Source: Pseudomonadota bacterium (GTDB lineage: Bacteria > Pseudomonadota > Gammaproteobacteria > Burkholderiales > Rhodocyclaceae). Taken from it: a DNA stretch of 64,000 nucleotides. Below the pieces are notes generated by a model that was not told where the DNA came from, made no database searches, and saw only the letters and a list, made by a program, of their open reading frames with translations. Shown one piece after another: positions 8,195 through 49,041 of the stretch. The DNA lies in contig JAGTRT010000030.1 in the NCBI GenBank assembly GCA_018261895.1, positions 1 through 64,000 on the forward strand, in the 5' to 3' direction. Each line of letters starts with the position of its first letter. Position 1 is the first letter of the stretch. A program made the position numbers and the translations under genes.

Positions 8195-9454
8195 CTACAC
8201 TGCGAATGCCTCCAACTTCTTGGGCACCGCGATATTCTTCAGGCGTACATAATCCGGCAAACCGTTTCGATATGGCGGCGGCTCCTCCCCTTCTATGAGG
8301 GGTTGCAGGTAAGTCCGGCACGCATCTGAAATATGAAATCCATCGGCCGTTATGAATTCGGCCGGCATCTTGCGCTCGACGTTGGCGATTTCTGCCAGCG
8401 GCGCTTCACCAATTTCCCAGCGATATGGGCTGTTGGCGGTTCGATTGATCGTTGCCATCACCGCATTCTTGCCGCGCAGAGCCAAATTGACCGCGGCGAC
8501 GCCCAAGGCATGCGCCTGCTCAAGATCGGTGCGCGAAGCCAGGTGACGCGCGGAGCGCTGCAGATAATCGGCCAGTGCCCAGTGATACTTGTATCCCAAG
8601 CGATCCTTGATGAGCTGAGCCACAACCTGACCAACACCACCCAGTTGCGAGTGCCCAAAGGCATCTTTGGTACCTGACTCGGCAATCAAATTGCCAGAGG
8701 CATCGGACAAACCTTCGGAAACGGCGACCGTACAATAACCGTACTGCACGACACATTCATTGACCCTGGCGAGAAAACGCTCGGGATCAAACGGAATTTC
8801 AGGGAAGAGGAGGATATGCGGCGGCTCGCCGACGTTTTCGGAAGCAAGGCCGCAAGCAGCGGTAATCCATCCCGCGTGACGCCCCATAACCTCGAGCACA
8901 AAAATCTTGGTCGACGTACGCGCCATTGAGGCAACGTCATAGCCGGCCTCGCGAATCGATGTGGCCACGTACTTGGCCACAGAGCCGAATCCCGGGCAAC
9001 AATCGGTGTGGGGAAGGTCGTTGTCCACGGTCTTGGGCACGCCCACACAAACAACCGGGTAACCCATCTTTTCGGCAATCTGCGACACTTTCCATGCGGT
9101 ATCCATGGAGTCGTTGCCGCCGTTGTAGAAGAAATAGCCGATGTCATGAGCCTTGAACACTTCGATCAGGCGCTCGTATTGGGCACGGTGCTGCTCAAGG
9201 CTTTTCAATTTGTAGCGACAAGAGCCGAACGCACCACCCGGTGTATGGCGCAGGCGCGCAATGACGTCATCGGGCTCGAAACTCGTGTCGATCAGGTCTT
9301 CGGTCAGGGCGCCGATTATGCCGTCACGTCCGGCGTAGACTTTCCCGATTCGGTCGGGATGGCGGCGTGCCTCCTGAATCAGGCCGCACGCCGTCGTATT
9401 GATGACGGCGGTAACGCCCCCTGACTGTGCGTAGAAGGCGTTTTTCACCGTCAT
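8195..9454 (-). CDS. pfp: Pyrophosphate-dependent 6-phosphofructokinase
   Basis: PFK fold: [47 protein letters not shown] (PKTVDND is PPi-PFK-like), MGRHAGWI. Confidence 0.85.
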
Positions 9455-9462
9455 TTGCCTGC

Positions 9463-10176
<714 letters not shown>

Positions 10177-10190
10177 CTAAGAGCGGAAAA

Positions 10191-10976
10191 TTACTCGCTA
10201 TTTCCGGCTCGGTCAAACAGTTTGCGCATCCGCTCGGCGTCTTCGGGCGTATCCACGCCCGGCGCCGGAGCCGAATCGATCAGCGTGACGCTGATCCGGT
10301 AGCCATGCCACAACGCACGCAGTTGCTCCAACGATTCGAATTGTTCGGTCGGTGCTACGGTCAACCCGGAAAATGCCTTTAAAAACGAAGCCCGATAGGC
10401 GTACAGACCAACATGCCGGTATGCCGGAAAATTATTCGGCAACGATTCGCCGCCAGCCTCCCGGGCGAAATGGTCGCGGGCATACGGGATCGGGGCGCGG
10501 GAAAAGTAGGCTGCATCGCCATCGGCACGACACACCACCTTGACCACGTTCGGATTGAAAAAATCGGCCGGATCGCTTATCGGATGGGCGACGGTCGCGA
10601 TGTCTGCCCCACTGGCCGCCAACTGGCGCGCGGTCTGCAGGATCACCACAGGCTCGATCAAGGGTTCATCACCTTGCACGTTGACGATGATGGTGTCACC
10701 GCTCCAGCCACGCTGTTCGACAACTTCGGCCAAACGGTCGGTGCCGGTGGGATGGTCGCTGCGGGTCATGAGCGCCGCGACCTCATGTGACTCGGCGGCA
10801 GCACGCACTTCCGGATGATCGGTTGCCACCCAGATCTCCTCGGCCCCCGACAGGCGGGCCCGCTCGGCCACCCGGACAACCATCGGCTTGCCGCCGAGAT
10901 CAAGCAGGGGCTTGGCCGGCAGGCGTGTCGACGCGTAGCGCGCCGGGATGACGACCTTGAAGGAAAGTCCCGACAT
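10191..10976 (-). CDS. kdsB: 3-deoxy-manno-octulosonate cytidylyltransferase
   Basis: [35 protein letters not shown]; sits in the lpxK-ycaR-kdsB cluster. Confidence 0.95.
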
Positions 10977-11152
10977 TACTGCCCGTCCGCGTTGAGCTGA
11001 CGCGCTTCGTCCTCGAGCATGATCGGAATGTCATCGCGGATCGGGAAGGCCAGCTTGCAGGGCTTGCACACCAATTCCTTTTCGGCCTTGTGGTGTTCGA
11101 GATTACCCTTGCAAATCGGGCAGACGAGAATATCAAGCAACCTGGCGTCCAC
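10976..11152 (-). CDS. Trm112/YcaR-family small zinc-ribbon protein
   Basis: GTG-start 58-aa frame [58 protein letters not shown]; below the track length cutoff. Confidence 0.88.
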
Positions 11153-12134
11153 GGAGTTTCTCCACTATGTGTTCAATAAGGGCCGGCGACAGCTCGGCCT
11201 CGACCGGCAAAACCCAGGTTTCGCCCGCCGTCAGTCCGGCGCATTTTACTGCATCTTTTTCCGTCATCAGCAGGATGCCGTCCTGGGCAAATGTCAGATC
11301 GGCAGCGGTATAGCGATGATGATCGGGAAACGCCTGCGTCTTGCAGTCAAGCCCAAGCGCCGCAAGGGTCTGGAAGAATCGCTCCGGATTGCCAATGCCG
11401 GCCAGTGCATAGAGCGGGGATCGTCCGTGAAAACGTTCTGCCGTGCAGGTTTGCGAGGGATCATCCAGACGATAGAACTCCCCGGGCAGCAGACGCATCT
11501 CGAAGCCTGGCGCAGCGCCGGACAACGTCGATTTCAAATTATTGCCAATAATCGCGTCGACCGTGGCAAGCCGGCTCAATGGCTCGCGCAGGGGCCCGAC
11601 CGGCAGACGCCAGCCATTGCCCGCACCTCTAGCATCGAAAACCACAAGCTCAACATCCCGGGCCAGGGCATGGTGTTGCAGCCCATCGTCGCATAGCAGG
11701 ACGTTTACTTCCGGATGTGCGGCGAGCAAGGCCGCACCTGCCTCGGCTCGCTGCCTTCCAACCCAGACCGGCACACCGCTGCGCCGGGCCAGCAACAATG
11801 GCTCGTCGCCCACCTCTGTAGGCAGGGAGTCTGCATGGACCGGGATCACGCCATCGCCCGTGCGGCCATAGCCACGACTGACGATCCCCGGTTGCCATCC
11901 AAGCGCCTTGAATTGCTTCGCTAGCCAGAGCGTGAGCGGTGTCTTGCCGGCGCCACCGACGATCAGGTTGCCCACGACGATGACTGGGACCGGCAGGCGT
12001 ACCGGTTTGGCCAGGGCACGATTGAGGGCGCTCAGCACAACATAGATGGCGAGCAGCGGCAGCAAAAGCCACAACGCCGGCGTCAGCCGGCGTTGTTCAA
12101 ACCACTGTCGCTGTAGCCAGCGGGCGAACATCAA
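11133..12134 (-). CDS. lpxK: Tetraacyldisaccharide 4'-kinase
   Basis: [42 protein letters not shown]. Confidence 0.95.
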
Positions 12135-20000: not shown

Positions 20001-21980
20001 ATGAGTCTGCATGTCTTCGTCGCCATGCCGTTCGGGATCAAGTCTACCGAGGACGGCGGCCCGGTCGATTTCGACCGGATCTATGGCGAGCTGATCCGCC
20101 CGGCCCTGCAGGGCATCGGACTCGAAGTACTGCGCGCCGACGAGGAACAGCGCCCCGGCGACATCCGCGCGGACATGTTCCAGGAACTGCTGATGGCCGA
20201 CCTCGTGGTCGCCGACCTGACGCTCGACAACCCCAATGTCTGGTACGAACTCGGCGTCCGCCACGCTTTGCGCTCGCGCGGCGTCATCCTTATCCAGGGC
20301 CCGCGCGCCGCCCAGCCCTTCGACATCTACACCGACCGCAAGCTGACTTACCACCTGCAGGACGGCGCCCCCGACCCGAACACCCTGGCCGCCGACATCG
20401 CGGCGCTGGCGGCGATGGCCAAGAACACGCTGAACGCCTGGCGCGGGCGCAAGACCAGCCCGGTCTACAGCCTCCTGCCCAACCTCGAAGAGCCCGACTG
20501 GTCGCGCCTGCGCGTCGGCAATGCCCTGGAATACTGGGAAAGCCACGACGAGTGGGCGACCCGCATCGAGGTCGCCCGCAACGCCAACCGCCCCGAGGAC
20601 ATCCTCGTCCTCGCCGACGAAGCCCCGGCCACGCCGCTGCGCGTGCATGCCCACCTCGAAGCCGGCGAGGCCCTGCGCCGGATGCAGCATTTCAATTTCG
20701 CGCTCGAACAATGTGAAATGGCGCTCGACTACGCGCCGGACAACCATGAAGCCGCCCGCCAGCGCGGCGTCTGCCTTCAGCGACTGGGCCGCACGGACGA
20801 AGCGCGGGCCGTTTTCAAGAAGCTCATCGCGGACAACGAGGACGATATCGAAGCCTGGGAACTGCTCGGCCGCCTGGACAAGGAGGAATGGGTCAGCGCC
20901 TGGCGGATCGAGGGCCACACGCCCGAGCAGATGCGCCAGGACGCCGCCTACGAAGACGCCCTGCTGCGCGACACCATCCTCAGCTACAGCCGGGCCTTCC
21001 GGAGCAGTCCCGGCCACTACCTCTCAGGCATCAACGCGGTCATGATGATGCACGTCTACCGCGACCTGACCGGCGACACACGCTACGAGCGCGAAGCCGC
21101 CATCATGGCCGGCGGCGTCGCCTGGGCGGCCTCCTGCGAACGCGATGACGACTGCCGTTTCTGGGCCCTGGCCAACCTGGGCGCCCTGGCCATCATCGAC
21201 AAGGACCCGGCGGCCGTCGGCACCGCCTTCCGCGAAGCCATCGCCCACGCAGACAACGACTGGCTTGCGCTCGAAGCCACCTACAAGCACATCGCCCTGC
21301 TCGCCGTCCTCGGCTTTCGCCCCGACAACGTCACCATGGCCCTCGGCACGCTCGAACGCGCCATGCTGCGCATCAAGCCGCCGGCCAGCCAGCGCCAGCC
21401 GGACAAGGTCTTCCTCTTTTCCGGTCACATGATCGACAGCCCGAGCCGACCGGAACCGCGCTTTCCCGCCGACAAGGAGCCGATCGCGGCGGCGGCCATT
21501 GGCGAACTGCTCGACCGCCTCGGCGCCGGGCCGGACGATCTGGCGATTGCCCAGGGTGCGGCCGGCGGCGACATCCTCTTCGCCGAAGCCTGCCTGGCGC
21601 GTGGCGTACCGTTCCAGATGCTGCTGCCGCTCGAAGAAGCCGATTTCATCGAAGCCTCGATCCTCCCCTCGGCCAACGGCGAAGCCTGGCGCCAGCGCTA
21701 TCTCGCCCTGCGCGACAAGCTCACGCTGCCACCGCGCATCATGCCGGACGAACTCGGCCCCCTGCCGCGCGACCGCGACGGCCACGAAATGAACGCCTTC
21801 GAACGCTGCAACCTGTGGCTGCTCTACAGCGCGCTGACCCAGGGCCTCAAGCGTGTTCGCTTCGTCTGCCTGTGGAACGGCGGCGGTGGCGACGGCGCCG
21901 GGGGCACCGCGCACATGGTCCACGAAGTCAGGCGACGAACCGGCCAGGTCCATTGGCTGGACACGCGCCAGCTCTGGTAA
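20001..21980 (+). CDS. TIR/nucleoside-deoxyribosyltransferase-like N-terminus (TRAFs-binding-type) + TPR + SLOG-like C-terminal Rossmann domain
   Basis: MSLHVFVAMPFGIKS...DLVVADLTLDNPNVWYELGVRHALRSRGVILI; TPR-like helices; C-terminal VFLFSGHMID...LAIAQGAAGGDILFAEACLARGVPFQMLLPLEEADFIEASI. Confidence 0.7.
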   Translation: MSLHVFVAMPFGIKSTEDGGPVDFDRIYGELIRPALQGIGLEVLRADEEQRPGDIRADMFQELLMADLVVADLTLDNPNVWYELGVRHALRSRGVILIQGPRAAQPFDIYTDRKLTYHLQDGAPDPNTLAADIAALAAMAKNTLNAWRGRKTSPVYSLLPNLEEPDWSRLRVGNALEYWESHDEWATRIEVARNANRPEDILVLADEAPATPLRVHAHLEAGEALRRMQHFNFALEQCEMALDYAPDNHEAARQRGVCLQRLGRTDEARAVFKKLIADNEDDIEAWELLGRLDKEEWVSAWRIEGHTPEQMRQDAAYEDALLRDTILSYSRAFRSSPGHYLSGINAVMMMHVYRDLTGDTRYEREAAIMAGGVAWAASCERDDDCRFWALANLGALAIIDKDPAAVGTAFREAIAHADNDWLALEATYKHIALLAVLGFRPDNVTMALGTLERAMLRIKPPASQRQPDKVFLFSGHMIDSPSRPEPRFPADKEPIAAAAIGELLDRLGAGPDDLAIAQGAAGGDILFAEACLARGVPFQMLLPLEEADFIEASILPSANGEAWRQRYLALRDKLTLPPRIMPDELGPLPRDRDGHEMNAFERCNLWLLYSALTQGLKRVRFVCLWNGGGGDGAGGTAHMVHEVRRRTGQVHWLDTRQLW

Positions 21981-22043
21981 TCTGAATGTCATTTTCCTGC
22001 CGCACCCTGTCAAGTCGCACCGTACTCAACAAGGAGACGCACC

Positions 22044-22877
22044 ATGGCCAAGAAAGCACTTTGCATCGGCATCAACAACTACCCCGGAACACACATGGAC
22101 CTGCAGGGCTGCGTCAATGACGCGCAGGACTGGTCGGCCGTCCTCACCGCGCGCGGCTACAAGACCACGCTGCTGCTCGACGACAAGGCGACCAAGGCCG
22201 CCATGGTCGACGCCATGAGCAAGCTGATCGCCAGCGGCAGCAAGGGCGACAGCCTGATCATCACCTTCTCCGGCCACGGCACCTACCAGCCGGACGAGGA
22301 TGGCGACGAGGTCGACGGCCTCGACGAAGCGCTCTGCCCCTACGACCTGCAGACCAAGGGTGCGGCGCTGACCGACGACGAGATCAAGGGCATCTTCGCG
22401 ACGCGCAAGGGCGGCGTCCGCCTCCTGCTCATTTCCGACAGTTGTCACTCCGGCACCGTGACCCGCGCCGCCAAGGCCGACAAGGATGCCGACACCCGGC
22501 CGCGCTTCATGCCGATGGGCAACTGGCTGCCGGCCAACAAGCTGCCGAAGAATTTCGCCGGCAAGGCCGCGCAGACCATGGTCGGGCCGGTCGGCACCTC
22601 GCCGCTGGCCGGAGCCTTCGTCAAGCAGGTCGGCGACCTGCTGCTTTCCGGTTGCAAGGAAGGCCCGAACAACTACAGCTACGACGCCAAGATCGCCGGC
22701 CGCTACAACGGCGCCTTCACCTACTACGCCCTGAAGACGCTCAAGGCCCTCAAGCCCGAGGCGACCTACAACGACTGGTACAAGGCCATCCTCAAGAGCC
22801 TGCCCTCGGCCAGTTATCCGCAGACGCCGCAACTGGTCGGCACCAGCCAGGCCAAGACGCGCAAGGCACTGACCTGA
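22044..22877 (+). CDS. Caspase-family protein (type I metacaspase-like peptidase)
   Basis: Catalytic His in LIITFSGHGTYQPDEDGDEVDGLDEALCPYD; Cys in LLLISDSCHSGT. Confidence 0.93.
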   Translation: MAKKALCIGINNYPGTHMDLQGCVNDAQDWSAVLTARGYKTTLLLDDKATKAAMVDAMSKLIASGSKGDSLIITFSGHGTYQPDEDGDEVDGLDEALCPYDLQTKGAALTDDEIKGIFATRKGGVRLLLISDSCHSGTVTRAAKADKDADTRPRFMPMGNWLPANKLPKNFAGKAAQTMVGPVGTSPLAGAFVKQVGDLLLSGCKEGPNNYSYDAKIAGRYNGAFTYYALKTLKALKPEATYNDWYKAILKSLPSASYPQTPQLVGTSQAKTRKALT

Positions 22878-22891
22878 TTGAAGCAGAACGG

Positions 22892-22916
22892 TCATTCCCG
22901 CGAAAGCGGGGATGAT
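22892..22916. repeat. REP-like hairpin TCATTCCCGCGAAAGCGGGGATGA between the caspase and CHAT genes
   Basis: Near-perfect inverted repeat ATTCCCGC-GAAA-GCGGGGAT in the 80-bp intergenic gap. Confidence 0.6.
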
Positions 22917-22957
22917 CAACCCGAATTGCGCTCTACCCGGCAAGCAGGAGACACAGC

Positions 22958-25900
22958 ATGACAACACGCACGATCCGCATTCGCGGCACCAAAGTCGGTG
23001 CCGGCAGCCGCGGGGCCAGCCAGCCCGGCGGGCCGGAACCGCTCTTTCGACTCGCCCCGGGCAGCGCCCGCGATGGCGCCGGGGACGAGATCGAGGTCAA
23101 GCCCGAGACGGTAGTGCGTGTTGCGCTCGAAAACGGCTTCGTGCTGTGGAGCCGGGCCGACGACCTGACGCGCGAATACGGCAATCCGCCGCCGCGCGGC
23201 CAGAGTGGCGCCTGGGAATTCACCCGCCTGACACCACGCCGGGCGGCCAGCGGCGAACGCGGCGTAGTCGGACTGGCCATCCGCGTTCTTGAATTCTTCA
23301 AAATCGACGCCACCAAGAAAGCCGCCGGCAAGATCGGCAAGGCGCTCGAAGAAAAACAACTGGGCAAGGCGCCCGGCCTCTACCGCGTCGCCCCCGGCAA
23401 GACGCTGAGCCTCACGCCGGTGCCCGGCACCGGCCCGCTGCCGGCGGCCAAAGGCCCCATCCTCGTCTTCATCCACGGCACGGCGTCGAGCACGACAGCC
23501 GGCTACGGCAAACTCTGGGACCCGCGCAACGCCGACGCGCAGAAGCTGCGCGACAGCCTGACGGCGACCTACGGCGATCGCGTCTTCGCCTTCGAGCACC
23601 GGACCCTGACCGAAAGCCCGATCCAGAACGCCATGGCCCTGCTCGAACGGCTGCCCGACGGCGCCGACGTGCATCTCGTCTCGCACTCGCGCGGCGGTCT
23701 GGTCGGCGAACTGCTCTGCCTGTCGGGCTGCGCGAAGCTGGCCGAGGTGCTGACGCCATTTCAAATTGAGCGCTTTTTTGCCGTTGACCGTAGCATTGCC
23801 CCGCAGCTCGGCCTGCCGCCGCTGTCGGCCGACGAGGAAAAGGCGCGCAACGCCGCCTACGCCGCCGACCGCGACCGCCTCGGCCAATTCGTCACGCTGC
23901 TCGGCAAGAAGAAGATCCGCGTCAGCCGCTTTGCCCGCGTCGCCTGCCCGGCGCGCGGCACGACGCTGGCCTCCGGCCGCCTCGACCGCTGGCTGTCGGT
24001 CATCGACTACCTGTCGTCGGCTGCGCTCGGCAGCGGGCTGGTAGTGAGCGGCGCCGTCGATTTCATCCAGGCCGTCGTCGCCGAACGCACCGACCCGCGC
24101 ACCCTGCCCGGCGTCGAGGCGATGATCCCCGGCTCGGCCCTGACCCGGCTGCTCAACAGCATCCCCGAACTGGCCACTGACGCCGACCTCGCCGTCATCG
24201 CCGGCGACATTGAGGGCGGTGCCACGCTGCTCAACACACTGAAGGTGCTTGCCACCGACTGGTTCTACAAGAACGAGCACGACCTCGTCGTCGATACGGC
24301 GTCCATGCTCGGTGGCCTGCCGCGCCTCAACGGCGGCGCCCGCTACCGCAAGGACCAGGGGCCGAAGGTCGATCACTTCCGCTATTTCACCAACGGCCAG
24401 AGCATCAACTGGCTGCGTGCCGCGCTGACCCGGGCCGATCACGAGACCGGCGGTTTCCTGCCCATCGAAGTCAAGGCACCGCGCCCGGCCCGCGAAATCC
24501 GGCGGCGCAGCAGTGGCACCCCGCGCCCCATCGCCGTCGTCCTGCCCGGCACCATGGGCAGCGAACTCAAGGCCGGTGATGAACAGATCTGGCTCAAGTA
24601 CGGCGCACTGTTCGCCGGCGGCCTCGGCAAGCTGCGCATGGGCAAGCCGGACATCGTGCCGGTCGGTCTGGTCGAGGACTTCTATGGCCCGCTCGTCGAC
24701 TTCCTGGCGCGCAGCCACGATGTCGAGGTCTTCCCCTACGACTGGCGCCACTCGATCCGCGATGCGGCTGCCCGTCTGGCCGACACGCTGGCCCCGCTCG
24801 TCGACCGCGCCGAGCGCACGCAACAGCCGCTGCGCCTCGTCGCCCACTCGATGGGCGGCCTCGTCGTCCGCTCGATGATCGCCGACGGCGGCGCCGGCGC
24901 CGCGCTCTGGGAACGCATCAAACGCCTGCCGGGCAGCCGCTTCCTGATGCTCGGCACGCCCAACCTCGGCTCCTACGAAGCGGTGCGCTGGCTGACCGGC
25001 TTCAACCCGACGCAGGCCAAGCTGACGCTGCTCGACATCGGGCACAACACCGACCAGATCATCGGCATCGTCCGCGACTACCCGGGCCTGCTCGAACTGC
25101 TGCCCTTCGCGCCGAAAGACCCGAATTTCACCGAAATGGCCCACTGGCAGGCGATCAGGGAGAGCACCGAAGCGCAATGGGAACTGGCCAACCCGGCCAC
25201 GCTCAAGGAAGCGGCCGTGTCCTGGCAACGCCTGCTCGCCGCGCCGACCGATCCGCTCATGTGCTACGTCGCGGGCTGCCAGCCGGCCACCGTCATCGAC
25301 TACCAGCTGGTGCCCCGCGACGACGATCCGCCGAGCCAGCGCAAGAAACTCGAATTCATCGCCACGGCCGAAGGCGACGGCACGGTGAGCTGGGCTTCCG
25401 GCCGACTGCCCGGCGTGCCGGTGTGGTACGTCGAGGACACCGCGCATGACGCGCTGTGCGCCCAGCCCAAGGCCTTCCCCGGCTATCTCGACCTGCTCGT
25501 CAAGGGCAGCACGACGCTGCTGCCGGCCGCACCGCCGACCCGCGCCCGCGGCGCCGCCGGCGAGGAACGTTTTGTCCTGCCGTCGCTGCCCGTGGCCGAC
25601 AGCATGCCCGGCCCCGACGACATTGCGACATTTGGATTTTCGGGCGGAATTCCGGTTGACCGTGGGAACGGCGAAAAATCCGGCCAGACCATCGAAGTCA
25701 GCATCACCCACGGCAGCCTGGCCTACGCCCGCCACCCGGTCGTCGTCGGCCACTACCAGGGCGACACCATCGTCAGCGCCGAGAAGGCGCTCGACCGGCA
25801 GCTCGGCGGCGCCCTGTCCGGCCGCGCCGATCTCGGCATCTACCCCGGCCCGCTCGGCACCTGCACGACCTTCTTCAACGACAGCCCGACGGCCAAGCCG

Positions 25901-28378
25901 GCCGGCGCCCTCGTCGTCGGCCTCGGCGAAGTCGGCAAGCTCGGCCCCGGCCAGCTCGAAGAAGCCATGCGCAGCGCCCTGCTCGACTTCGCGCTGCGCA
26001 TCGCTCACTGGCCGGATGATCGCTTCGGCGAAGCCAGCCGGCCGCGCTCGGCGGCCATCAGCTGCCTGCTCATCGGCACCGGTGCCGGTGGCGTCCCGGT
26101 CGGCGACGCCATCGAAGCCGTCCTGCGCGCCGCCATCACTGCCAATGCCCGACTGGTCGACAACGAAATGGACGGCCGGGTCGTCATCGACCGCATCGAA
26201 TTCGTCGAGCTCTACGAAGATCTCGCCATCTCGGCCGCCCACGCCCTGCGCAAGGTGGTCGACAACGCCGAGCTGAAGCCCGGCCTGCACTGGGCTGCAG
26301 AGGCCATCGAGGCGGGCCAGGGCGGGCAGTTCCGCCTGCGCGCCGACGAGGCGCCGGAGTGGTGGCACCGCCTCGAAATCGTCGAGGACGAACACAACGA
26401 CCAGACGCTGCGCTTCATCTTCCCGACCGACAAGGCGCGCGCCGAGGAAACCATGGCCACCGGCCAGCTCTCGCTGGCCGACTCCTTCATCGAACTGGCC
26501 AGCCAGGACACCAACCGCAACGCCGAGGCCGCCAGGACGCTGTTCGAGCTGCTGCTCCCCGTCCGCGTCAAGGAACTGTCCGGCCAGCAGGGCAACCTCG
26601 TGGTGCTCGTCGACAAGCGTTCGGCGCGCTACCCGTGGGAACTGCTCGAGGATCGCTGGGGCAGCAGCCCACGTCCGCCGGCCGTCAATGCCGGCATGAT
26701 CCGCCAGTTCAAGACGGCCAATTTCCGCGCCCGGCCGGCCTATGCGCCGAGCGACACGGCGCTCGTCATCGGCAATCCGGACCTCGGCAACTCGCCCGAT
26801 TTCGACGACCTGCCCGGCGCCCGCGACGAGGCGCTGAGCGTCGTCGGCACCCTGGCCAATGCCGGCTTCGATGTCACCGACCGCGTCAATGAACGCACGC
26901 CAGCCATCCTCGAAGCGCTGCACCGCGAGAAATGGCGCATCCTCCATCTGGCCGGGCACGGCGTCCATGAATACCAGTCGGCCCGCATGAGCGCGCCGCG
27001 TTCGGGCATGGTCATCGGCCTCGACACCATCCTGACCCCGGGCGACATCGGCCAGATGCGCTGGGTGCCGGAACTGGTCTTCATCAACTGCTGCCACCTC
27101 GGCCGCGTCGATGGCCACGGCAAGACCGAGCCCGGCGTCCTCGCCGCCAACCTCGCCGAGCAGTTCATCCTGATGGGCGTCAAGGCCGTCATCGCCGCTG
27201 GCTGGGCTGTCGACGATTCCGCCGGCAAAGCTTTTGGCGAAGGCTTCTACCGGCGCATGGTGGCCGGCGAATTTTTCGGCGAAGCGGTCCGCGCCGCCCG
27301 CGAAGACATTTTCACCGGCTGCGAGAACGTGAACACCTGGGGCGCCTACCAGTGCTACGGCGATCCGAACTACCGCCTGTCGCGCGACAGCGTGCAACGC
27401 CACAGCGAAGGCCTGCCCTACACGACGCCGCACGAACTGGTCGTCGATCTCGACAACCTGGCCTGCGGCCTGCGCAACGGTGACGATGCCTCGGATGTCG
27501 CCGAGCGCATCGAACGCCGCCTGCGGCGCATTCCAGGCACGCAAGCGGCTTGGACGAAGCGCGCCGATGTCGCCGCCGCGCTGGGCTTTGCCTGGGGCGA
27601 AGCGGGCGAATGGGAAAAAAGCATCGCCGAGCTGCGCGTCGCCATCGAAGCCGAAGGCGGGCAATGCAGCGTGCGCGTCATCGAACAGCTGGCCAACTAC
27701 GAAGTCCGCCTGGCCGGCAGCCGCTGGCTCGCGGCCGACGACCGCAATGAAACGCTGCGGGCAGAACTGCGCGCCAGCATCGAACAGGCCATCTCGCGCC
27801 TGGCTGCGCTCTGCGTCAACGGCGAAACAAGCGAACGCCTGAGCCTTCTCGGCGGCGCCTACAAGCGCCTGGCGCTGATCGAAGCGGCCGACGGCAACCG
27901 CCTGGAAGCCCTGGTCAACATGGCCGAGCACTACGGCCGGGCCTACGCGCTGGGTGGCAAGCCCTACGCCTTCACCAACTGGGCCAATGCCGCGCTGCTC
28001 GTCCGCCGCTGCTACCCGGATCAGCCGACCGACCAGCCACCGCTGCGTGGCCTCGACAGCTTGCGCGAAAAGGTCGCCCGCCTGCACCGCGCCCTCGACA
28101 AGAGCAACGCGAGCACGCCGAACTTCTGGGACAGCGCCAGCCTGGCCGACCTCGACCTCGTGCTGGCGATGGCCGACAGCCTGCCCGGCAGCCGGCGGCG
28201 CAAGGCCTCGCCGGCGCCCGACGCCGCCCGCGAAACCTATCGCCAGGCCATCCTGCGCGGGGCCAGCGTGCGCGAGCGCTCGTCGATCACCGAACACCTC
28301 GATTTCCTGCGCGCCCACTACCCCGACGACGACCCGATGGCCGGACTCATTGACCGGATCAAGGAGGACCTCGCATGA
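22958..28378 (+). CDS. Giant multidomain protein: two alpha/beta hydrolases, macro/M17-N-like region, CHAT protease, TPR-like tail
   Basis: Hydrolase 1: ILVFIHGTASSTTAGYG / VHLVSHSRGGLVGELL. Hydrolase 2: AVVLPGTMGSELK / LRLVAHSMGGLVVRSM. CHAT: WRILHLAGHGVHE / LVFINCCHLGRVDG. Confidence 0.85.
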   Translation: MTTRTIRIRGTKVGAGSRGASQPGGPEPLFRLAPGSARDGAGDEIEVKPETVVRVALENGFVLWSRADDLTREYGNPPPRGQSGAWEFTRLTPRRAASGERGVVGLAIRVLEFFKIDATKKAAGKIGKALEEKQLGKAPGLYRVAPGKTLSLTPVPGTGPLPAAKGPILVFIHGTASSTTAGYGKLWDPRNADAQKLRDSLTATYGDRVFAFEHRTLTESPIQNAMALLERLPDGADVHLVSHSRGGLVGELLCLSGCAKLAEVLTPFQIERFFAVDRSIAPQLGLPPLSADEEKARNAAYAADRDRLGQFVTLLGKKKIRVSRFARVACPARGTTLASGRLDRWLSVIDYLSSAALGSGLVVSGAVDFIQAVVAERTDPRTLPGVEAMIPGSALTRLLNSIPELATDADLAVIAGDIEGGATLLNTLKVLATDWFYKNEHDLVVDTASMLGGLPRLNGGARYRKDQGPKVDHFRYFTNGQSINWLRAALTRADHETGGFLPIEVKAPRPAREIRRRSSGTPRPIAVVLPGTMGSELKAGDEQIWLKYGALFAGGLGKLRMGKPDIVPVGLVEDFYGPLVDFLARSHDVEVFPYDWRHSIRDAAARLADTLAPLVDRAERTQQPLRLVAHSMGGLVVRSMIADGGAGAALWERIKRLPGSRFLMLGTPNLGSYEAVRWLTGFNPTQAKLTLLDIGHNTDQIIGIVRDYPGLLELLPFAPKDPNFTEMAHWQAIRESTEAQWELANPATLKEAAVSWQRLLAAPTDPLMCYVAGCQPATVIDYQLVPRDDDPPSQRKKLEFIATAEGDGTVSWASGRLPGVPVWYVEDTAHDALCAQPKAFPGYLDLLVKGSTTLLPAAPPTRARGAAGEERFVLPSLPVADSMPGPDDIATFGFSGGIPVDRGNGEKSGQTIEVSITHGSLAYARHPVVVGHYQGDTIVSAEKALDRQLGGALSGRADLGIYPGPLGTCTTFFNDSPTAKPAGALVVGLGEVGKLGPGQLEEAMRSALLDFALRIAHWPDDRFGEASRPRSAAISCLLIGTGAGGVPVGDAIEAVLRAAITANARLVDNEMDGRVVIDRIEFVELYEDLAISAAHALRKVVDNAELKPGLHWAAEAIEAGQGGQFRLRADEAPEWWHRLEIVEDEHNDQTLRFIFPTDKARAEETMATGQLSLADSFIELASQDTNRNAEAARTLFELLLPVRVKELSGQQGNLVVLVDKRSARYPWELLEDRWGSSPRPPAVNAGMIRQFKTANFRARPAYAPSDTALVIGNPDLGNSPDFDDLPGARDEALSVVGTLANAGFDVTDRVNERTPAILEALHREKWRILHLAGHGVHEYQSARMSAPRSGMVIGLDTILTPGDIGQMRWVPELVFINCCHLGRVDGHGKTEPGVLAANLAEQFILMGVKAVIAAGWAVDDSAGKAFGEGFYRRMVAGEFFGEAVRAAREDIFTGCENVNTWGAYQCYGDPNYRLSRDSVQRHSEGLPYTTPHELVVDLDNLACGLRNGDDASDVAERIERRLRRIPGTQAAWTKRADVAAALGFAWGEAGEWEKSIAELRVAIEAEGGQCSVRVIEQLANYEVRLAGSRWLAADDRNETLRAELRASIEQAISRLAALCVNGETSERLSLLGGAYKRLALIEAADGNRLEALVNMAEHYGRAYALGGKPYAFTNWANAALLVRRCYPDQPTDQPPLRGLDSLREKVARLHRALDKSNASTPNFWDSASLADLDLVLAMADSLPGSRRRKASPAPDAARETYRQAILRGASVRERSSITEHLDFLRAHYPDDDPMAGLIDRIKEDLA
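23758..23792 (+). repeat. Intragenic TTGACCGT repeat (GCCG subtype) in the CHAT gene
   Basis: ATTTCAAATTGAGCGCTTTTTTGCCGTTGACCGTA; encodes PFQIERFFAVDRS. Confidence 0.65.
25630..25664 (+). repeat. Second intragenic TTGACCGT repeat in the CHAT gene
   Basis: ATTTGGATTTTCGGGCGGAATTCCGGTTGACCGTG; encodes TFGFSGGIPVDRG. Confidence 0.65.
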
Positions 28379-29208
28379 CCACCCGCAAAACACCCACCAA
28401 GCCAGCGACCACCGAGCCCCCCGCAGCAAAGCCGCGCGGCCGGCGCCGGAGCGCAACGCCCCCGGTGACCACACAGCCCGAGGTCGTGAGCCAGACGCCG
28501 GCCAAGACGGCCAAAAAACCGGCTGCCGCGAAAAAGGCAACGGCAACGAAGGCTGCCAAGCCGCGCACCACGCCGCCCGCCCCCGCTGTCACTCCCCCGG
28601 CTGCGGGCAAAGCCCGCGGCGCCTCGCGTTCGGCCAATCCCACGGTCGACCGGAAAAATGAGCCAATTTCGCAATTCACCCTGGCCAACATCCGCCACGA
28701 CACGCGCATTTCGCCCAACTTCCTGATCTATGAACTGACCCGATCCGAGCTCGCCGACCGCCGTGGCATCCCCAACCATTTTGCCTCCGACCAGGAGCTG
28801 CGCGCCGCCATCCATCTCGCCCGCGAAGTACTGCAGCCGATCCGCGACAAGTTCGGCAGCTTCACGCCGAACAGCGTTTTCCGCGGCCACCCGCTCGAAC
28901 GCGCCCTCAAGAACAAGCCAGCGAGCTGGCTCAGCACCAGCCAGCATTCGCGCGGCGAAGCCTGCGACATCGAGATCGTCGGCATGAGCACGCTGGACCT
29001 GGCCAACTGGGCGAAGGACAACCTCAAGGATTTCGACCAGATCATCTGCGAATGCTACGACCCGACCAAAGGCCCCAATTCCGGCTGGGTGCACATCTCG
29101 CTCAAGGCCCCGGGCACGGGCGAAAACCGCCGACAACTGCTGAGCTACATCGCCAGCCACGGCAAGATGGTCTACGTGCCGGGCCTGCGCGCCACCGCGA
29201 CCGCCTGA
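28375..29208 (+). CDS. M15-family (D-Ala-D-Ala carboxypeptidase-like) peptidase with Lys/Pro/Ala-rich N-terminus
   Basis: Zn-ligand pattern STSQHSRGEACDIEIVG ... GPNSGWVHISL; overlaps the CHAT stop by 4 bp (ATGA). Confidence 0.75.
   Translation: MTTRKTPTKPATTEPPAAKPRGRRRSATPPVTTQPEVVSQTPAKTAKKPAAAKKATATKAAKPRTTPPAPAVTPPAAGKARGASRSANPTVDRKNEPISQFTLANIRHDTRISPNFLIYELTRSELADRRGIPNHFASDQELRAAIHLAREVLQPIRDKFGSFTPNSVFRGHPLERALKNKPASWLSTSQHSRGEACDIEIVGMSTLDLANWAKDNLKDFDQIICECYDPTKGPNSGWVHISLKAPGTGENRRQLLSYIASHGKMVYVPGLRATATA
28641..28676 (-). repeat. Intragenic TTGACCGT-repeat variant (GTCGACCGT) in the M15 gene
   Basis: Plus strand CACGGTCGACCGGAAAAATGAGCCAATTTCGCAATT; encodes PTVDRKNEPISQF. Confidence 0.5.
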
Positions 29209-29211
29209 CGC

Positions 29212-30777
29212 ATGGCCTCGGGCAAGATTCTGACCCTGCTGGTCATCGCCACGCTGCTGGCGCTGATCGGGGCCTGGATCGTCGCGCGCACTTATCGCAA
29301 GCGGATGCAAGGGCTCATGCAGGCGCCGCTTGCCGCGTCCGCCCCCGGCGATGTGGTCGTAACCGGCAGACCACCTGCCCGTCCTGCCCCCCCGACAAAC
29401 TGGCGACTGGAGGATAACCAGAAGGCGCACCATCGCCTGCTGTGGACCTTCGCCGCGCTGACCCTGCCCATCTCGTTGACGCGGACGGTGCTGACCCAAA
29501 TCATGGCCGACGGCCCGCTCAGCATCACGATCATTGCCGCCCTCGGTACCGCGTATGCGTGGCCGATATTGCCCGTTCTTGCCGTAATCGGCCGCTGGTC
29601 TCGTCCGCGTTTTATCCTTGCCATGCTCATTTGGTGCGCTTTCGCCATAGTGCTCCTTTCCTGGCGCACCAACGAGAATGTCAGCGTGAGCATGGTCACC
29701 ACCTGGGTACTCTTCGACACGGCCATGCCGCTGTTCGTCGTCACGGCGATCTGTCTGGGTGGCGCCACACGGGCCATCAGCCCATGGCTGGCGCCCCTGC
29801 TTGCAGTGTTCATCGGCTCATCGATACTGGGCCTGGACTTTCTCCAGACGCTGTTCGACACACAAAGCCCGCTCGTCGGCTGGCTAGTCCAGTGGTTCAG
29901 TCCCGTATCCGCCATGACCCTGTTTGCCATCCTGCCCTGGCTGATAGTGTGGTGGCCGGTTCGCGCCCTCGGTCGCTGGCTCGGCCAAGCCTACCGGGAA
30001 CGGCGAATCTCCGAACTGTTCTATCTCTATACCGCCGTATGGGCGATCGCAGTGGCGGGCCCCACGCTCGGCGACATCGACGGATCGGGCTGGAAATCCC
30101 TGATCAATCTCCTGCCGCTGCTGTGGATTCCGCTCGGCGCATGGCTCATGAAACGCCATGTCATTCCATCCATGAGCAATTCGCCGCCAACCTTGCTCGT
30201 GCTGCGCGTATTCAAGCAAGACGCAAACGTCCAGGCCATTTTCGACCGGGTCATCGAACGCTGGCGCCTGAGCGGCAATACCGTGCTGATCGCGGGCACC
30301 GATCTCGCCTATCGCACCATCGACGCCGACGACGTATTCACCTTCCTGGACGGTCGCCTAGGCGAGCGTTTTGTCGCCCGTCCATCCGACATCGATGCGC
30401 GCATAGCCCAGATGGAATTCCAGCCCGACACCGAGGGACGCTACCGGATCAACGAATGCTATTGCCACGACACCACCTGGCAGCAGGCACTCGACAGGCT
30501 GGTCGGCATCAGCGACGTGGTGCTCATGGACCTGCGCAATTTCAAGGCGAAAAACGCCGGCTGCGTCCATGAACTCGGCGTCCTGTCCAAGGCGCCCAAT
30601 CTCGCCCGCGTCGTCATCCTGACCAACCCGGACACCGAGCGCGAGGCCGCCCAGGCAGCCGCTGCCGGCGCGCCGGACGGCCGTTTCGTCTGGCTCGACG
30701 AAAGCAGCCGTAACAGCCTCAAACCGGCCGACGTCCTGGCCGCCCTTTTCCCGACCGCAACCGCTGCCACGCGCTAG
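29212..30777 (+). CDS. Multi-pass membrane protein with C-terminal TIR-like cytosolic domain
   Basis: Several hydrophobic helices in the first ~300 aa; C-terminal LLVLRVFKQDANVQAIFDRVIERWRLSGNTVLIAGTDLAYRTI...ISDVVLMDLRNFKAKNAGCVHELGVLSKAPNLARVVILTN. Confidence 0.6.
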   Translation: MASGKILTLLVIATLLALIGAWIVARTYRKRMQGLMQAPLAASAPGDVVVTGRPPARPAPPTNWRLEDNQKAHHRLLWTFAALTLPISLTRTVLTQIMADGPLSITIIAALGTAYAWPILPVLAVIGRWSRPRFILAMLIWCAFAIVLLSWRTNENVSVSMVTTWVLFDTAMPLFVVTAICLGGATRAISPWLAPLLAVFIGSSILGLDFLQTLFDTQSPLVGWLVQWFSPVSAMTLFAILPWLIVWWPVRALGRWLGQAYRERRISELFYLYTAVWAIAVAGPTLGDIDGSGWKSLINLLPLLWIPLGAWLMKRHVIPSMSNSPPTLLVLRVFKQDANVQAIFDRVIERWRLSGNTVLIAGTDLAYRTIDADDVFTFLDGRLGERFVARPSDIDARIAQMEFQPDTEGRYRINECYCHDTTWQQALDRLVGISDVVLMDLRNFKAKNAGCVHELGVLSKAPNLARVVILTNPDTEREAAQAAAAGAPDGRFVWLDESSRNSLKPADVLAALFPTATAATR

Positions 30778-30797
30778 CCCACTACAAGGAGAACCCC

Positions 30798-31976
30798 GTG
30801 AACCAACAAGTCCTGAAGCGCATCAAAGATCCTGGCCAGAAGAAAATCCTCGCCTGCGACGGTGGCGGCATTCTCGGTCTGATGAGCGTCGAAATCCTGG
30901 CCAAACTCGAAGCCGACCTGCGCACCCGTCTGCAGAAGCCCAACCTGGTCCTCGCCGACTATTTCGATTTCGTTTGCGGCACGAGCACCGGCGCCATCAT
31001 CGCCAGCTGCATTTCGACCGGCATGTCGATGGATGTGATCCGCAGCTTCTATACCGCCAGCGGCCAGCAGATGTTCGACAAGGCATCCGTGCTCAAGCGC
31101 CTCAAATACAGCTACAACGACGAACCGCTGGCGAAGAAACTGCGCGAGGAACTCGACAAGGCCCTGCACCACACGGCCAGCGCCGCCGAGCCCAACGCCA
31201 CGCTCGGCGACGCCGGGCTGCGCACGCTGCTCATGATGGTCATGCGCAACGTCAACACCGATTCGCCGTGGCCGGTCAGCAACAACCCGCTGGCCAAATA
31301 CAACGACCGGACCCGCCCCGACTGCAATCTCAAGCTGCCGCTCTGGCAACTGGTCCGCGCCAGTACCGCCGCGCCCACCTTCTTCCCGCCGGAAGTCGTG
31401 ACCTTCGGCGAAGGCACCGAAAAACGCTACGAATTCATCTTCGTCGATGGCGGCGTGACGACCTACAACAACCCGGCCTTCCTCGCCTTCCAGATGGTCA
31501 CCGCGGCGCCCTACAAGATCAGCTGGCCGACCGGCGACGACAAGCTGCTCATCGTCTCCATCGGCACCGGCAGCACGGCCAAGGTTCGCCCCGATCTCGA
31601 TGCCGACGACCTGTGGCTGCTCGACAACGCCAAGAACCTGCCCGGCGCCCTCATGAACGCCGCCTCGGCCGGTTGGGACATGGCCTGCCGGGTCATTGGC
31701 GACTGCCGCTTCGGTCCGAAGATCGACCGCGAAATCGACGACCTCGTGCCAACCGACGTCATCCCGGTCACGTCGAGCGTACCCAAACAGTTCGCCTACG
31801 TCCGCTACGATCCCGATGTCTCCCAGGCCGGGCTGGATGCGCTGGGTCTCTCGACCATCAAGGCAGAAAACGTGCAGGTCATGGATTCGGTCAAGCACAT
31901 GAAGGATATCCAGCAGGTCGGCGCGGCCTACGCCGCGCACAACGTCAGCCTCAAGCACCTGCGGGGCTTCGCATGA
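30798..31976 (+). CDS. Patatin-like phospholipase
   Basis: KILACDGGGILGLMSVEIL oxyanion loop; FVCGTSTGAIIA nucleophile elbow; FVDGGVTTYNNPA catalytic Asp. Confidence 0.93.
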   Translation: MNQQVLKRIKDPGQKKILACDGGGILGLMSVEILAKLEADLRTRLQKPNLVLADYFDFVCGTSTGAIIASCISTGMSMDVIRSFYTASGQQMFDKASVLKRLKYSYNDEPLAKKLREELDKALHHTASAAEPNATLGDAGLRTLLMMVMRNVNTDSPWPVSNNPLAKYNDRTRPDCNLKLPLWQLVRASTAAPTFFPPEVVTFGEGTEKRYEFIFVDGGVTTYNNPAFLAFQMVTAAPYKISWPTGDDKLLIVSIGTGSTAKVRPDLDADDLWLLDNAKNLPGALMNAASAGWDMACRVIGDCRFGPKIDREIDDLVPTDVIPVTSSVPKQFAYVRYDPDVSQAGLDALGLSTIKAENVQVMDSVKHMKDIQQVGAAYAAHNVSLKHLRGFA

Positions 31977-33307
31977 GCACCTGCTTCGTCATCCAGGGCT
32001 TCGGCAAGAAGACCGACTACACGGACGGCCGTATCCTCGACCTCGATGCCTCCTACGCCGTCATCAAGGACGCCATCGAATCTGCCGGCCTGCAGGCCAT
32101 CCGCGCCGACGAAATCCAGCATTCCGCGGTGATCGACGTCCCGATGTACGAAATGCTGCTCAACGCCGATGTCGTCGTCGCCGACCTGTCCACCTACAAC
32201 GTCAATGCCGCCTACGAACTCGGCGTGCGCTATGCCCTCCGCCCCCGCACCACCATCGTCGTTGCCGAGGAAGGCTTCAAGAATCCCTTCGACATCGGCC
32301 ACATCGCCATCCGCCGCTACAAGCATCTCGGCGAGGATATCGGCGCCAAGGAGGCGGTGCGTTTCAAGAACGAACTGAAGGCGGCCATCGCCGAGATACT
32401 CGCCTCGAATCGGGCTGACAGTCCGGTCTACACCTTCCTGCCTGGACTCATCCCTCCGGAACTCGCCGTGGCCAAGAATGCCCCTCCCCCACCGCAGGCC
32501 AGGGGAGGCATCCCCGCACCCGAGGTGCTCGATCAGGCTGACGCTGTCGATGACCTTCTCGCCGCAGCCCCCGAACCGGTCGCCACCCCCAAGGCCATGC
32601 TCGACGAAGCGCTGGCCCGAATCAACCCGCCACCAGGCCAGCCGAGCGATTTCGACGGCGCGCGCGGGCTGCTTCTCAAGGTTTTGCAACAGCGCCCCAA
32701 CGACCCCTTCGTGCTCCAGCAACTGGTCGTCGCCACCTACAAGTCGAAACAGCCGGACCCGCAGAACGCCCTGCTCGAAGCGCGCCGCATCATGGAGAAG
32801 TCGCTCAATCCGGCGTCGACCAACGATCCCGAAACACTGGGCCTGTGGGGCGCGATCCACAAGCGCCTGTGGGACATCAACGCCAACCCGACCGACCTCA
32901 ACGCCGCAGTCGACGGCTACGAACGGGGCTTCTCGCTGCGCCGGGACTGGTACAACGGCATCAACTACGCCTTCCTGCTCGACGTGCGTGCCGTGGAATG
33001 GCTGAAGGCCGGCAATCGCGACGAAGGCATCGCCGACTCCGTCCTCGCCCGGCGCATCCGGAACGAAGTCGGACGCCTGGCCCAGGCGGCGGCGGAAGAC
33101 AAGGAAGCCGACCCGCAAAAGCGCTTCTGGGCCATCGCCACCTTATGGGAAGCAGCGCTCGGTCGCGGCGACACCGCTGAAACCGCGCGCTGGGAGCAAG
33201 CCGCGCAGGCACTCGCCGTGCCGCAATGGATGCAGGACAGCCGACTGGAACAGGGACGGAAACTGCAGGCAGTGCAACAAGCCTTCGCGACGCTATCGGC
33301 CGGCTAG
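31973..33307 (+). CDS. TIR/nucleoside-deoxyribosyltransferase-like (TRAFs-binding-type) protein with TPR-like C-terminus
   Basis: MSTCFVIQGFGKKTDYTDGRILDLDASYAVIKDAIESAGLQAIRADE...NADVVVADLSTYNVNAAYELGVRYALRPRTTIVVAEE; ATGA overlap with the patatin stop; the track ORF starts too far upstream. Confidence 0.72.
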   Translation: MSTCFVIQGFGKKTDYTDGRILDLDASYAVIKDAIESAGLQAIRADEIQHSAVIDVPMYEMLLNADVVVADLSTYNVNAAYELGVRYALRPRTTIVVAEEGFKNPFDIGHIAIRRYKHLGEDIGAKEAVRFKNELKAAIAEILASNRADSPVYTFLPGLIPPELAVAKNAPPPPQARGGIPAPEVLDQADAVDDLLAAAPEPVATPKAMLDEALARINPPPGQPSDFDGARGLLLKVLQQRPNDPFVLQQLVVATYKSKQPDPQNALLEARRIMEKSLNPASTNDPETLGLWGAIHKRLWDINANPTDLNAAVDGYERGFSLRRDWYNGINYAFLLDVRAVEWLKAGNRDEGIADSVLARRIRNEVGRLAQAAAEDKEADPQKRFWAIATLWEAALGRGDTAETARWEQAAQALAVPQWMQDSRLEQGRKLQAVQQAFATLSAG

Positions 33308-46651: not shown

Positions 46652-46716
46652 TAACGCTTTGTCGTGATGTGTGACATATTTGCACAGCGGTCAGCCACAA
46701 AACGATGAAAGCGTTA
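46652..46716. promoter_or_regulatory. Widely spaced perfect 9-bp inverted repeat upstream of the first cyanophycin synthetase paralog
   Basis: TAACGCTTT (46652-46660) and AAAGCGTTA (46708-46716). Confidence 0.35.
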
Positions 46717-46772
46717 ATAATGCTGAAACCGAACATTCATCACCGCAGGCCAACGGAGCCAAAGCCAAGAGC

Positions 46773-49025
46773 ATGAAGAACAAGGACATCATTTTCCGGG
46801 ACACGATTTCACTGCGTGGCCCCAGCATCTGGACCTACCCGCCGGTCATCGAGACCTGGATCGACATCGGCGAACTGGAGGACTACCCCTCCGACAAGAT
46901 TCCCGGCCTCTACGAGCGCCTCGAAAGCTGGCTGCCCGGCCTCATCGAACATCGCTGCAACTACGACGTACGCGGCGGCTTCCTGCAGCGCCTCAAGGAA
47001 GGCACATGGCCCGGCCACATCCTCGAGCACGTTGTCCTCGAACTGATGACCCTGGCCGGTCTGCCCGACGGCTTCGGCCGCACCCGCGAAACGACGACGC
47101 GCGGCGTCTACAAGCTCGTCGTCAGCAATTTCCATGAGGAATGCACCCGCCTGGCGCTGGATATCGGCCGCGAACTGCTCCTCGCCGCCATTAAGGACGA
47201 GCCCTTCGACATCGCCGAGGCGATCAAGCCCCTGCGCCGCCGGGTGGACCGCAAATACCTCGGCCCATCCACGGCTGCCATCGTCAATGCCGCCGAAGCC
47301 CGCAAGATTCCCCACATCCGCCTGCTCGAAGACGGCAACCTCGTCCAGCTCGGCTACGGTGCCGCCATGCGCCGCATCTGGACGGCCGAAACCGACCAGA
47401 CCAGCGCCATCGCCGAAACCATCTCACGCGACAAGGACCTGACCAAGGAGCTGATTTCCTCGGTCGGCGTACCGGTCCCCGAAGGCCGCGAGGTCGACGA
47501 TGCCGACGACGCCTGCGATGCGGCCGAAGACATCGGCTACCCCGTTGTCGTCAAACCGACCGACGGCAATCACGGCCGTGGCGTCTTCATCGACCTCATG
47601 AATGCCGACGACGTCCGCAAGGCCTACGCCATCGCCGTCGAGGAAGGCTCCGGCGTTCTCGTCGAGCGCTCCATCCAGGGCATCGAACATCGCCTGCTCG
47701 TCGTCGGCGGCAAGCTCGTCGCGGCCAATCGCAGCGACCTCATCACCGTCACCGGCGACGGCAAGCATACCGTCCAGGAACTCATCGACAGACAGGTCAA
47801 CACCGACCCGCGCCGCGGCAATACCGAGCTGCACCCGCTGTCCATCATCAAGATCGATACCGCCGCGAACATCGAACTCGAACGCCAGGGGCTCAAAGCC
47901 GATGCCGTACCGGCCAAGGGCCGCGAGGTACTGATCCAGCGCAACGCCAATCACGCCTTTGACTGCACCGACGAAGTCCATCCCGAAACCGCCCAGGTCG
48001 CCGCACTGGCCGCCCGCGTCGTCGGCCTCGACATCGCCGGCATTGACCTCGTCTGCCAGGATGTCTCGAAGCCGCTGGCCGAACAGGGCGGCGCCATCGT
48101 TGAAGTCAACGCCGGCCCCAGCCTGCTCATGCACATCAAGCCGGGCATCGGCAAGCCGCGCCCGGTCGGCCAGGCCATCGTCGACAACCTGTTCGCCCAG
48201 AGCGAAAGCGGCCGCGTGCCACTGGTCGGCGTCACCGGCACCCACGGCAAGAACGCCGTCGCCAAGATGGTCGCCCATCTCATCTACCTCTCCGGCCAAC
48301 AGGGCGGCCTCGCCTGCAAGGACGGCATCTACCTCGGCCGCCGCCATGTCCAGAAAACCGATGCGGCCAATTGGGAGGGCGGTCGCCGTCTTCTGCTCAA
48401 TCGCTCGATCCAGGCTGCGGTCATCGAAAACGGGGCGCCGGTCATCCTCGGCGAAGGCCTGGCCTACGACCGCTGCTCGGTCGGCGTCGTCACCAATATC
48501 GTCTCGGCCGACGAAGACCTGTCGCGCTGGGATGTCCAGCCCACCGGCGGCGAGTACTACACGACGCCGCGTTCGATCTACCGGACGCAAGTCGATGTCG
48601 TGCTGCCCAGCGGCCACGCCGTGCTCAACGCCGAAGACGAACTGGTCGCCGATTTTGCCGAACTGTGCGATGGCGAAGTGATCTTCTTCGCCTGCGACCC
48701 GACCAACCCGACCCTGGCCGCCCACATTGCGGCCGGCAAGCGGGGCGTCACCGTCGTCGACAATCGCATCGTGCTGCGTTCGGGCAACGAGGAAACCCGC
48801 CTCAGCCGCCTGGTCGACGCGCCCTACATCGGCAAGGCCAAGCAAGCCAAAAACATCGCCAATGTGCTGGCAGGCATCGCCGCTGGCTGGGCCATGGGAT
48901 TGAGCCAGGAAGTGATGACGACGGGCCTCAAGACCTTCGGTCTCGAACTGGCCGATCCCGCGTCGCTGATCCTGCAGCCAGCCAAGAAGTCGCAAACCAA
49001 GAAGCCGGCCACCGCCCGGAAATAA
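46773..49025 (+). CDS. Cyanophycin synthetase-like protein (CphA' paralog)
   Basis: ATP-grasp region YPVVVKPTDGNHGRGVFIDL; Mur-ligase-like C-terminal half with GTHGKNAVAKM. Confidence 0.88.
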   Translation: MKNKDIIFRDTISLRGPSIWTYPPVIETWIDIGELEDYPSDKIPGLYERLESWLPGLIEHRCNYDVRGGFLQRLKEGTWPGHILEHVVLELMTLAGLPDGFGRTRETTTRGVYKLVVSNFHEECTRLALDIGRELLLAAIKDEPFDIAEAIKPLRRRVDRKYLGPSTAAIVNAAEARKIPHIRLLEDGNLVQLGYGAAMRRIWTAETDQTSAIAETISRDKDLTKELISSVGVPVPEGREVDDADDACDAAEDIGYPVVVKPTDGNHGRGVFIDLMNADDVRKAYAIAVEEGSGVLVERSIQGIEHRLLVVGGKLVAANRSDLITVTGDGKHTVQELIDRQVNTDPRRGNTELHPLSIIKIDTAANIELERQGLKADAVPAKGREVLIQRNANHAFDCTDEVHPETAQVAALAARVVGLDIAGIDLVCQDVSKPLAEQGGAIVEVNAGPSLLMHIKPGIGKPRPVGQAIVDNLFAQSESGRVPLVGVTGTHGKNAVAKMVAHLIYLSGQQGGLACKDGIYLGRRHVQKTDAANWEGGRRLLLNRSIQAAVIENGAPVILGEGLAYDRCSVGVVTNIVSADEDLSRWDVQPTGGEYYTTPRSIYRTQVDVVLPSGHAVLNAEDELVADFAELCDGEVIFFACDPTNPTLAAHIAAGKRGVTVVDNRIVLRSGNEETRLSRLVDAPYIGKAKQAKNIANVLAGIAAGWAMGLSQEVMTTGLKTFGLELADPASLILQPAKKSQTKKPATARK

Positions 49026-49041
49026 CGAGGAATAACGCGTC

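Follow-up and report, generated by a model that had tools for sequence, protein, structure and literature searches.

A conserved protein joining two alpha/beta-hydrolases to a CHAT protease, encoded in an operon resembling a self-destruct or anti-virus system yet to be characterised

Why should two lipase-like enzymes be joined to a protease in a single chain? The question is raised by an open reading frame at 22958–28378 (+ strand, as are all genes and domains of its operon given below) of the window, a 64,000-nucleotide stretch of a Rhodocyclaceae contig. A first-pass annotation had read its 1806-aa product as two alpha/beta-hydrolases fused to a CHAT protease, and had suggested a zymogen or self-processing multi-effector. 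The frame is a genuine gene. An antisense frame (22916–28546, 1876 aa) is longer, but it was ruled out as a real gene because homologs are conserved over their full length in the + frame. Full-length homologs from 72 further loci were aligned, at identities from 86% down to ~33%. Since two sequence patterns, HSRGG[LM]V and KAVVAAGW, were used to retrieve these loci, the conservation of these two motifs is partly selected; that of the other catalytic residues is free of this bias. Pfam search of the single protein returned DUF7379 (1.5e-33), LCAT (1.7e-7), CHAT (2.7e-28), TPR-S (3.3e-12) and, weakly, M17_N (0.0045), and neither PADLOC nor NCBIfam has a model for it. AlphaFold was run in two overlapping parts, residues 1–1140 (pLDDT 83) and 880–1806 (pLDDT 88.7). 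The order of parts is a small N-terminal beta domain, hydrolase 1, hydrolase 2, a macro-fold domain, CHAT and TPR-S. The two hydrolases and the CHAT protease of the earlier reading were thus borne out by Pfam, AlphaFold and the 72 further homologs, and its motif positions were right to within a few bases (the observed starts are 23681 for SHSRGG, 24842 for AHSMGG, 26945 for HLAGHG and 27080 for FINCCH). Scans for promoters and terminators yielded numbers close to those expected by chance.

The two nucleophile elbows had been assigned to two distinct hydrolases. The model of residues 1–1140 contains two separate and complete alpha/beta-hydrolase cores plus the macro-like domain, and together with the two aligned triads this rules out one interrupted hydrolase. 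Hydrolase 1 (DUF7379; residues ~120–500, 23315–24457) has an invariant triad, S244, D442 and H473 each being present in 73/73 aligned proteins, and DUF7379 was found in all 24 of the 24 homologs scanned. Its catalytic Asp loop (439–447) holds invariant residues, yet is modelled with pLDDT < 50, which may mean that the active site is not preformed, or may merely reflect a shallow alignment. Hydrolase 2 (LCAT/LPLA2-like; residues ~520–860, 24515–25537) carries S631, D807 and H830, together with YDWR at 594–597. D807 and H830 are each found in 73/73 proteins and S631 in 71/73 (one Cys, one Ala), so conservation of the catalytic residues extends across the 73 aligned proteins. The LCAT profile scored 31.3 bits against a cut-off of 21, covering part of the model, and Foldseek matched lysosomal phospholipase A2 and LCAT (E 1.7e-10). 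By profile, predicted fold and triad, hydrolase 2 is an LCAT/LPLA2-like lipase, its activity being predicted. The two exceptions at S631, in the homologs at L051 (Cys) and L109 (Ala), are probably natural variants without normal activity of that domain.

The macro-fold domain (residues 905–1125, 25670–26332) resembles the N-domain of M17 aminopeptidases and carries invariant GHY and GLG..G and a conserved G[TS]G loop. Although M17_N is weak in the single protein, we accept the macro fold, since 29/42 homologs match M17_N and Foldseek agrees (macro-domain matches at E 5e-6, TM-score up to 0.73 by target length); the macro/M17-N-like segment proposed from the letters therefore stands. A full M17 leucyl aminopeptidase was ruled out: M17_N alone matched, and what follows is CHAT instead of a catalytic metallopeptidase domain. 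The CHAT part (residues 1190–1469, 26525–27364) scored 99.7 bits with PF12770 (curated cut-off 24), and both residues of its dyad, H1334 and C1379, are found in 73/73 aligned proteins. H1334 is the second His of HLAGHG (codon 26957–26959), as had been annotated. The Cys had been placed in FINCCH, and it is the second of the two, C1379 (codon 27092–27094), that we identify as the nucleophile, because the aligned FINCC site reads NSC or NTC in two divergent CHAT proteins and because C1379 is kept in 73/73 proteins versus 72/73 for C1378; the first Cys was ruled out accordingly. By profile and dyad this part belongs to the CHAT protease family and is a predicted peptidase. In the model of residues 880–1806, which comprises the macro, CHAT and TPR parts, the loop 1381–1387 following the catalytic Cys is, the N-terminal linker aside, the sole segment with pLDDT < 50. 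The TPR-like tail of the earlier reading is a TPR-S helical region (27425–28375; Pfam match at residues 1552–1676) in both Pfam and AlphaFold.

The gene is the third of a seven-gene operon (20001–33307) on a single strand, in which neighbouring genes are at most ~80 bp apart and, at two junctions, overlap by stop and start codon (ATGA). Operon gene 1 (20001–21980) encodes a TIR/deoxyribohydrolase-like–TPR-S protein with a putative SLOG-like C-terminal domain recognised by eye. A Peptidase_C14 caspase (22044–22877) lies ~80 bp upstream of the main gene and has SGHG and SDSCHSG motifs; its R141, directly after the catalytic Cys, is conserved in 36/36 sequences. The start of an M15_3-like peptidase gene (28375–29208) overlaps the stop of the main gene by ATGA, and is followed by a gene for a multi-TM protein (29212–30777) with a C-terminal cytosolic domain by eye and no Pfam match, a similar gene being close to the homolog in 20/79 loci. 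Domain scans identified the last two genes as a patatin-like phospholipase (30798–31976) and a TIR/deoxyribosyltransferase-like–TPR-S protein (31973–33307). Here the longest open reading frame (30974–33307) is misleading as a single gene, since it hides these two genes in different frames. The operon, with these six partner genes, had been absent from the first-pass annotation. In two other loci the SLOG-like domain of operon gene 1 occurs as a stand-alone small gene (L055, 16205–16768; L066, 7427–8017); such a gene is close to the main gene in several loci, which suggests a nucleotide-sensing partner.

We examined how far this neighbourhood is shared. Among the immediate upstream same-strand neighbours of homologs (n = 52), 31 are C14 caspases, 6 are TIR_2 proteins, and a C11 peptidase and a patatin occur once each. 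Downstream, M15_3 was found in 21/52 scanned proteins (50 neighbours, one fused tail and one extra gene). Other homolog loci contain an amidase, a muramidase with a peptidoglycan-binding domain, STAND NTPases or DUF4062-nSTAND1. At L104, a DUF4062–nSTAND1–FGE protein (9100–11724) is encoded just downstream of the homolog and a muramidase/peptidoglycan-binding gene just upstream. When loci were thinned at 60% identity, the caspase was kept in 7/35 and the M15 gene in 7/35, from which we conclude that the exact operon is mainly that of one clade, and the kind of partner more general. The family is patchy and accessory: related sequence was found in 22/300 genomes of the order and 4/399 of the phylum, and a genome of the same genus (G111) has no detectable copy. 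The closest named relatives are from Azonexus, Dechloromonas and other Rhodocyclales, and more distant ones from Geobacter, Nitrospirales, Bacteroidota and Alphaproteobacteria. A full or partial relative is encoded in each of at least 509 candidate stretches from species genomes. No phage record matched the protein, and a phage-borne origin was rejected on this ground.

The relatives are modular. One homolog (L082, 9884–16342) has TIR_2 fused at its C-terminus, and C-terminal extensions alignable with it occur at L086 and L089. CHAT–TPR-S proteins with a macro-like region and no hydrolase are encoded at L110 and L117, the latter on a conjugative plasmid between TIR-nSTAND1-WD40 genes. An LCAT-M17N-CHAT protein (L116) adjoins SIR2 and endonuclease genes, and a near-full-length relative (L120) adjoins type I restriction-modification genes. 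In a distant relative (L118, 5833–8352), the LCAT-like lipase is fused to a trypsin-like peptidase in place of CHAT; relatives of its trypsin part match genes on plasmids that carry the annotation DNA/RNA non-specific endonuclease.

If the protein were a zymogen, activating cut sites would be expected to be conserved within disordered linkers. Two Arg sites stand out as isolated conserved positions amid variable segments of pLDDT < 50. R101-G102 (R101 codon 23258–23260, predicted disordered, conserved in 72/73) is a candidate cleavage or binding site; R864 (codon 25547–25549), near-invariant at 70/73, lies in disordered linker 2 by alignment and AlphaFold (25538–25681), and the residue after it is Gly or Ala in 64/73. 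The low pLDDT of the linkers may stem from a shallow alignment (57 sequences), and linkers of high-GC genomes are Arg-rich in any case. On visual inspection, an ARG[AG] motif also stands out in the M15 and TIR-TPR-S genes of the window, but it was dropped as a shared caspase motif of the operon proteins because orthologs of these genes do not conserve it. R864 is kept in 32/32 homologs with a nearby relative of the caspase versus 37/40 without, which leaves a tie between the Arg sites and an adjacent caspase unsupported. On both grounds, independence from the caspase and lack of conservation in the operon proteins, a shared caspase recognition motif is unsupported. As candidate cleavage sites, R101-G102 and R864 are consistent with the zymogen idea, which alignment and model here support but do not prove. 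The conserved linker Arg pattern agrees with cleavage by an Arg-specific protease, and the neighbouring caspase carries a DSCHSG motif, whose Asp we take to be the residue of a P1-Arg/Lys pocket, as in metacaspases. The linkers could be cut by the protein's own CHAT domain, by an unlinked caspase, or by none. The earlier suggestion thus fared unevenly: the context fits a multi-effector, and the zymogen part finds indirect support in the linker Arg residues and in a lipase fused to a second, unrelated type of protease, with the persistence of the linker Arg beside or apart from a caspase as a contrary point.

With its cell-killing enzymes, the operon has the look of a self-destruct or anti-virus system that is as yet uncharacterised. 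Our tentative reading, to which we give a probability of roughly 0.45, is that the protein is a conflict effector of the abortive-infection or cell-death type, held as an inactive single chain in which the lipases are protease-gated under TPR-S/macro control. For its function we infer four steps. Infection or damage would be sensed by the TIR-like/TPR-S partners and the TPR-S tail, possibly with an NAD-derived ligand bound by the macro-like domain. Sensing would order the active site of CHAT, in which the loop after the Cys is modelled with low confidence. CHAT and/or the adjacent caspase would then cleave after R101 and R864 to free one or both lipases, for which the protease partners of gated nucleases in other immune systems provide precedent. 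Finally, the two lipases, the patatin and the M15-type peptidase would damage membrane and cell wall, and the cell would be killed or arrested. This reading is supported by the catalytic conservation across 73 proteins, the folds, the linker Arg residues, the operon partners, the TIR fusion and the patchy distribution. Relatives adjoining SIR2, endonuclease, TIR-nSTAND1 and type I restriction-modification genes support it as well, as does the swap of CHAT for a trypsin-like protease after the same lipase at L118. It is weakened by the caspase-independence of R864, by linkers that are Arg-rich anyway, and by the presence of the caspase in only 7/35 thinned loci.

Published systems point the same way. 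In some conflict loci caspases always have an alpha/beta-hydrolase neighbour (Kaur 2020, PMC7159879), and such hydrolase–caspase pairs support the effector reading. The vWA-MoxR ternary conflict systems described there likewise place the two side by side, whereas the hydrolases here are additionally fused to a second protease, CHAT, and no MoxR AAA+ or vWA domain was found in the scanned proteins flanking the gene. Hachiman, AVAST and canu nucleases are proenzymes with trypsin-like or caspase protease partners (PMC12799240). These protease-activated pro-nucleases lend further support: they too combine an effector enzyme with interchangeable proteases, a feature mirrored by the L118 trypsin-lipase. 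In contrast to them, the effector here is a lipase on the same chain as the protease, and its gating is a proposal only.

The protein could instead belong to a protease cascade, in which the substrate of CHAT would be the neighbouring caspase or other proteins, and the hydrolases would be permanently tethered and switched by assembly or ligand rather than by linker cleavage; we regard this as possible, if doubtful. The best structural match to the CHAT fold is the SAVED-CHAT/PCaspase system of type III CRISPR (PDB 8tl0), in which, as here, CHAT is encoded beside a caspase, making a cascade plausible. SAVED-CHAT acts on its caspase partner. The caspase is also the commonest neighbour of our homologs and conserves R141, and the macro-CHAT-TPR-S core occurs without hydrolases (L110, L117). 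However, a cascade leaves the near-invariant Arg residues in the disordered linkers unexplained, and 40/72 aligned homologs have no nearby relative of this caspase. The gated effector could, on the other hand, be taken a step further, with one polypeptide combining two phospholipase proenzymes, their own activating caspase-fold protease and a macro-type domain that reads an NAD-derived signal from the operon's TIR-like proteins, so that a single signal would lead to membrane and wall destruction; in this full form we consider it unlikely.

Quite improbable, in our estimate, is that the linker Arg residues are structural or docking contacts in a constitutive scaffolded multi-enzyme that has no proteolytic switch and is perhaps a lipid-damage responder, not a suicide effector. 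R38 and R80 sit in better-predicted regions, isolated conserved W, L and Y residues occur besides Arg, and the Arg conservation is independent of an adjacent caspase, all of which would suit such contacts; a context in which TIR, caspase, SIR2, STAND and wall hydrolases prevail, and the patchy presence, would not. A secreted antibacterial or virulence lipase against other cells is very improbable: hydrolase 2 does match the type VI phospholipase effector Tle4 (4r1d), among others, in both sequence and fold, but neither the protein nor its scanned neighbours showed a T6SS-type marker domain, and the cytosolic sensor-like TPR-S/TIR/CHAT context and the protease fusion are unlike T6SS cargo.

Tests for the defining parts of the SAVED-CHAT, Craspase, macro-Thoeris and M17 families showed these parts to be absent, and the protein belongs to none of the four. 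Unlike SAVED-CHAT it has a macro-like domain, two lipases and TPR-S; the 1806-aa protein has no match to a SAVED domain, and the scanned operon proteins contain no cas domain. Craspase TPR-CHAT (Csx29, PDB 7y85; PMC10028731) similarly joins CHAT to TPRs (fold match E 2.4e-4), but here TPR-S comes after CHAT, lipases are fused upstream, and no gRAMP/Cas7-11 was found among the scanned flanking proteins. TM-macro Thoeris (PMC11204291) also has a macro-fold domain near TIR-like proteins. In contrast to its ThsA/ThsB, the macro-like domain here has CHAT and lipases as its fusion partners instead of TM segments, and it resembles the M17 N-domain, ligand binding being putative. Most likely the protein is a variant of known protease-effector systems, and the TPR-S source paper may already list such architectures. 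If the gated-effector reading is right, lipases would join nucleases, gasdermins and sigma factors as enzymes and factors activated by proteolysis in bacterial immunity, an enzyme and its activator would share one chain, and a single operon would bring TIR/NAD signalling together with a macro-type domain and with caspase-fold proteases. The family is widespread and lacks a PADLOC or NCBIfam model, so its study could then put a name to a new system of defence or cell death and assign DUF7379 a function. Elsewhere in the window, two adjoining cyanophycin-synthetase-like genes (46671–51615) are unrelated to the operon.
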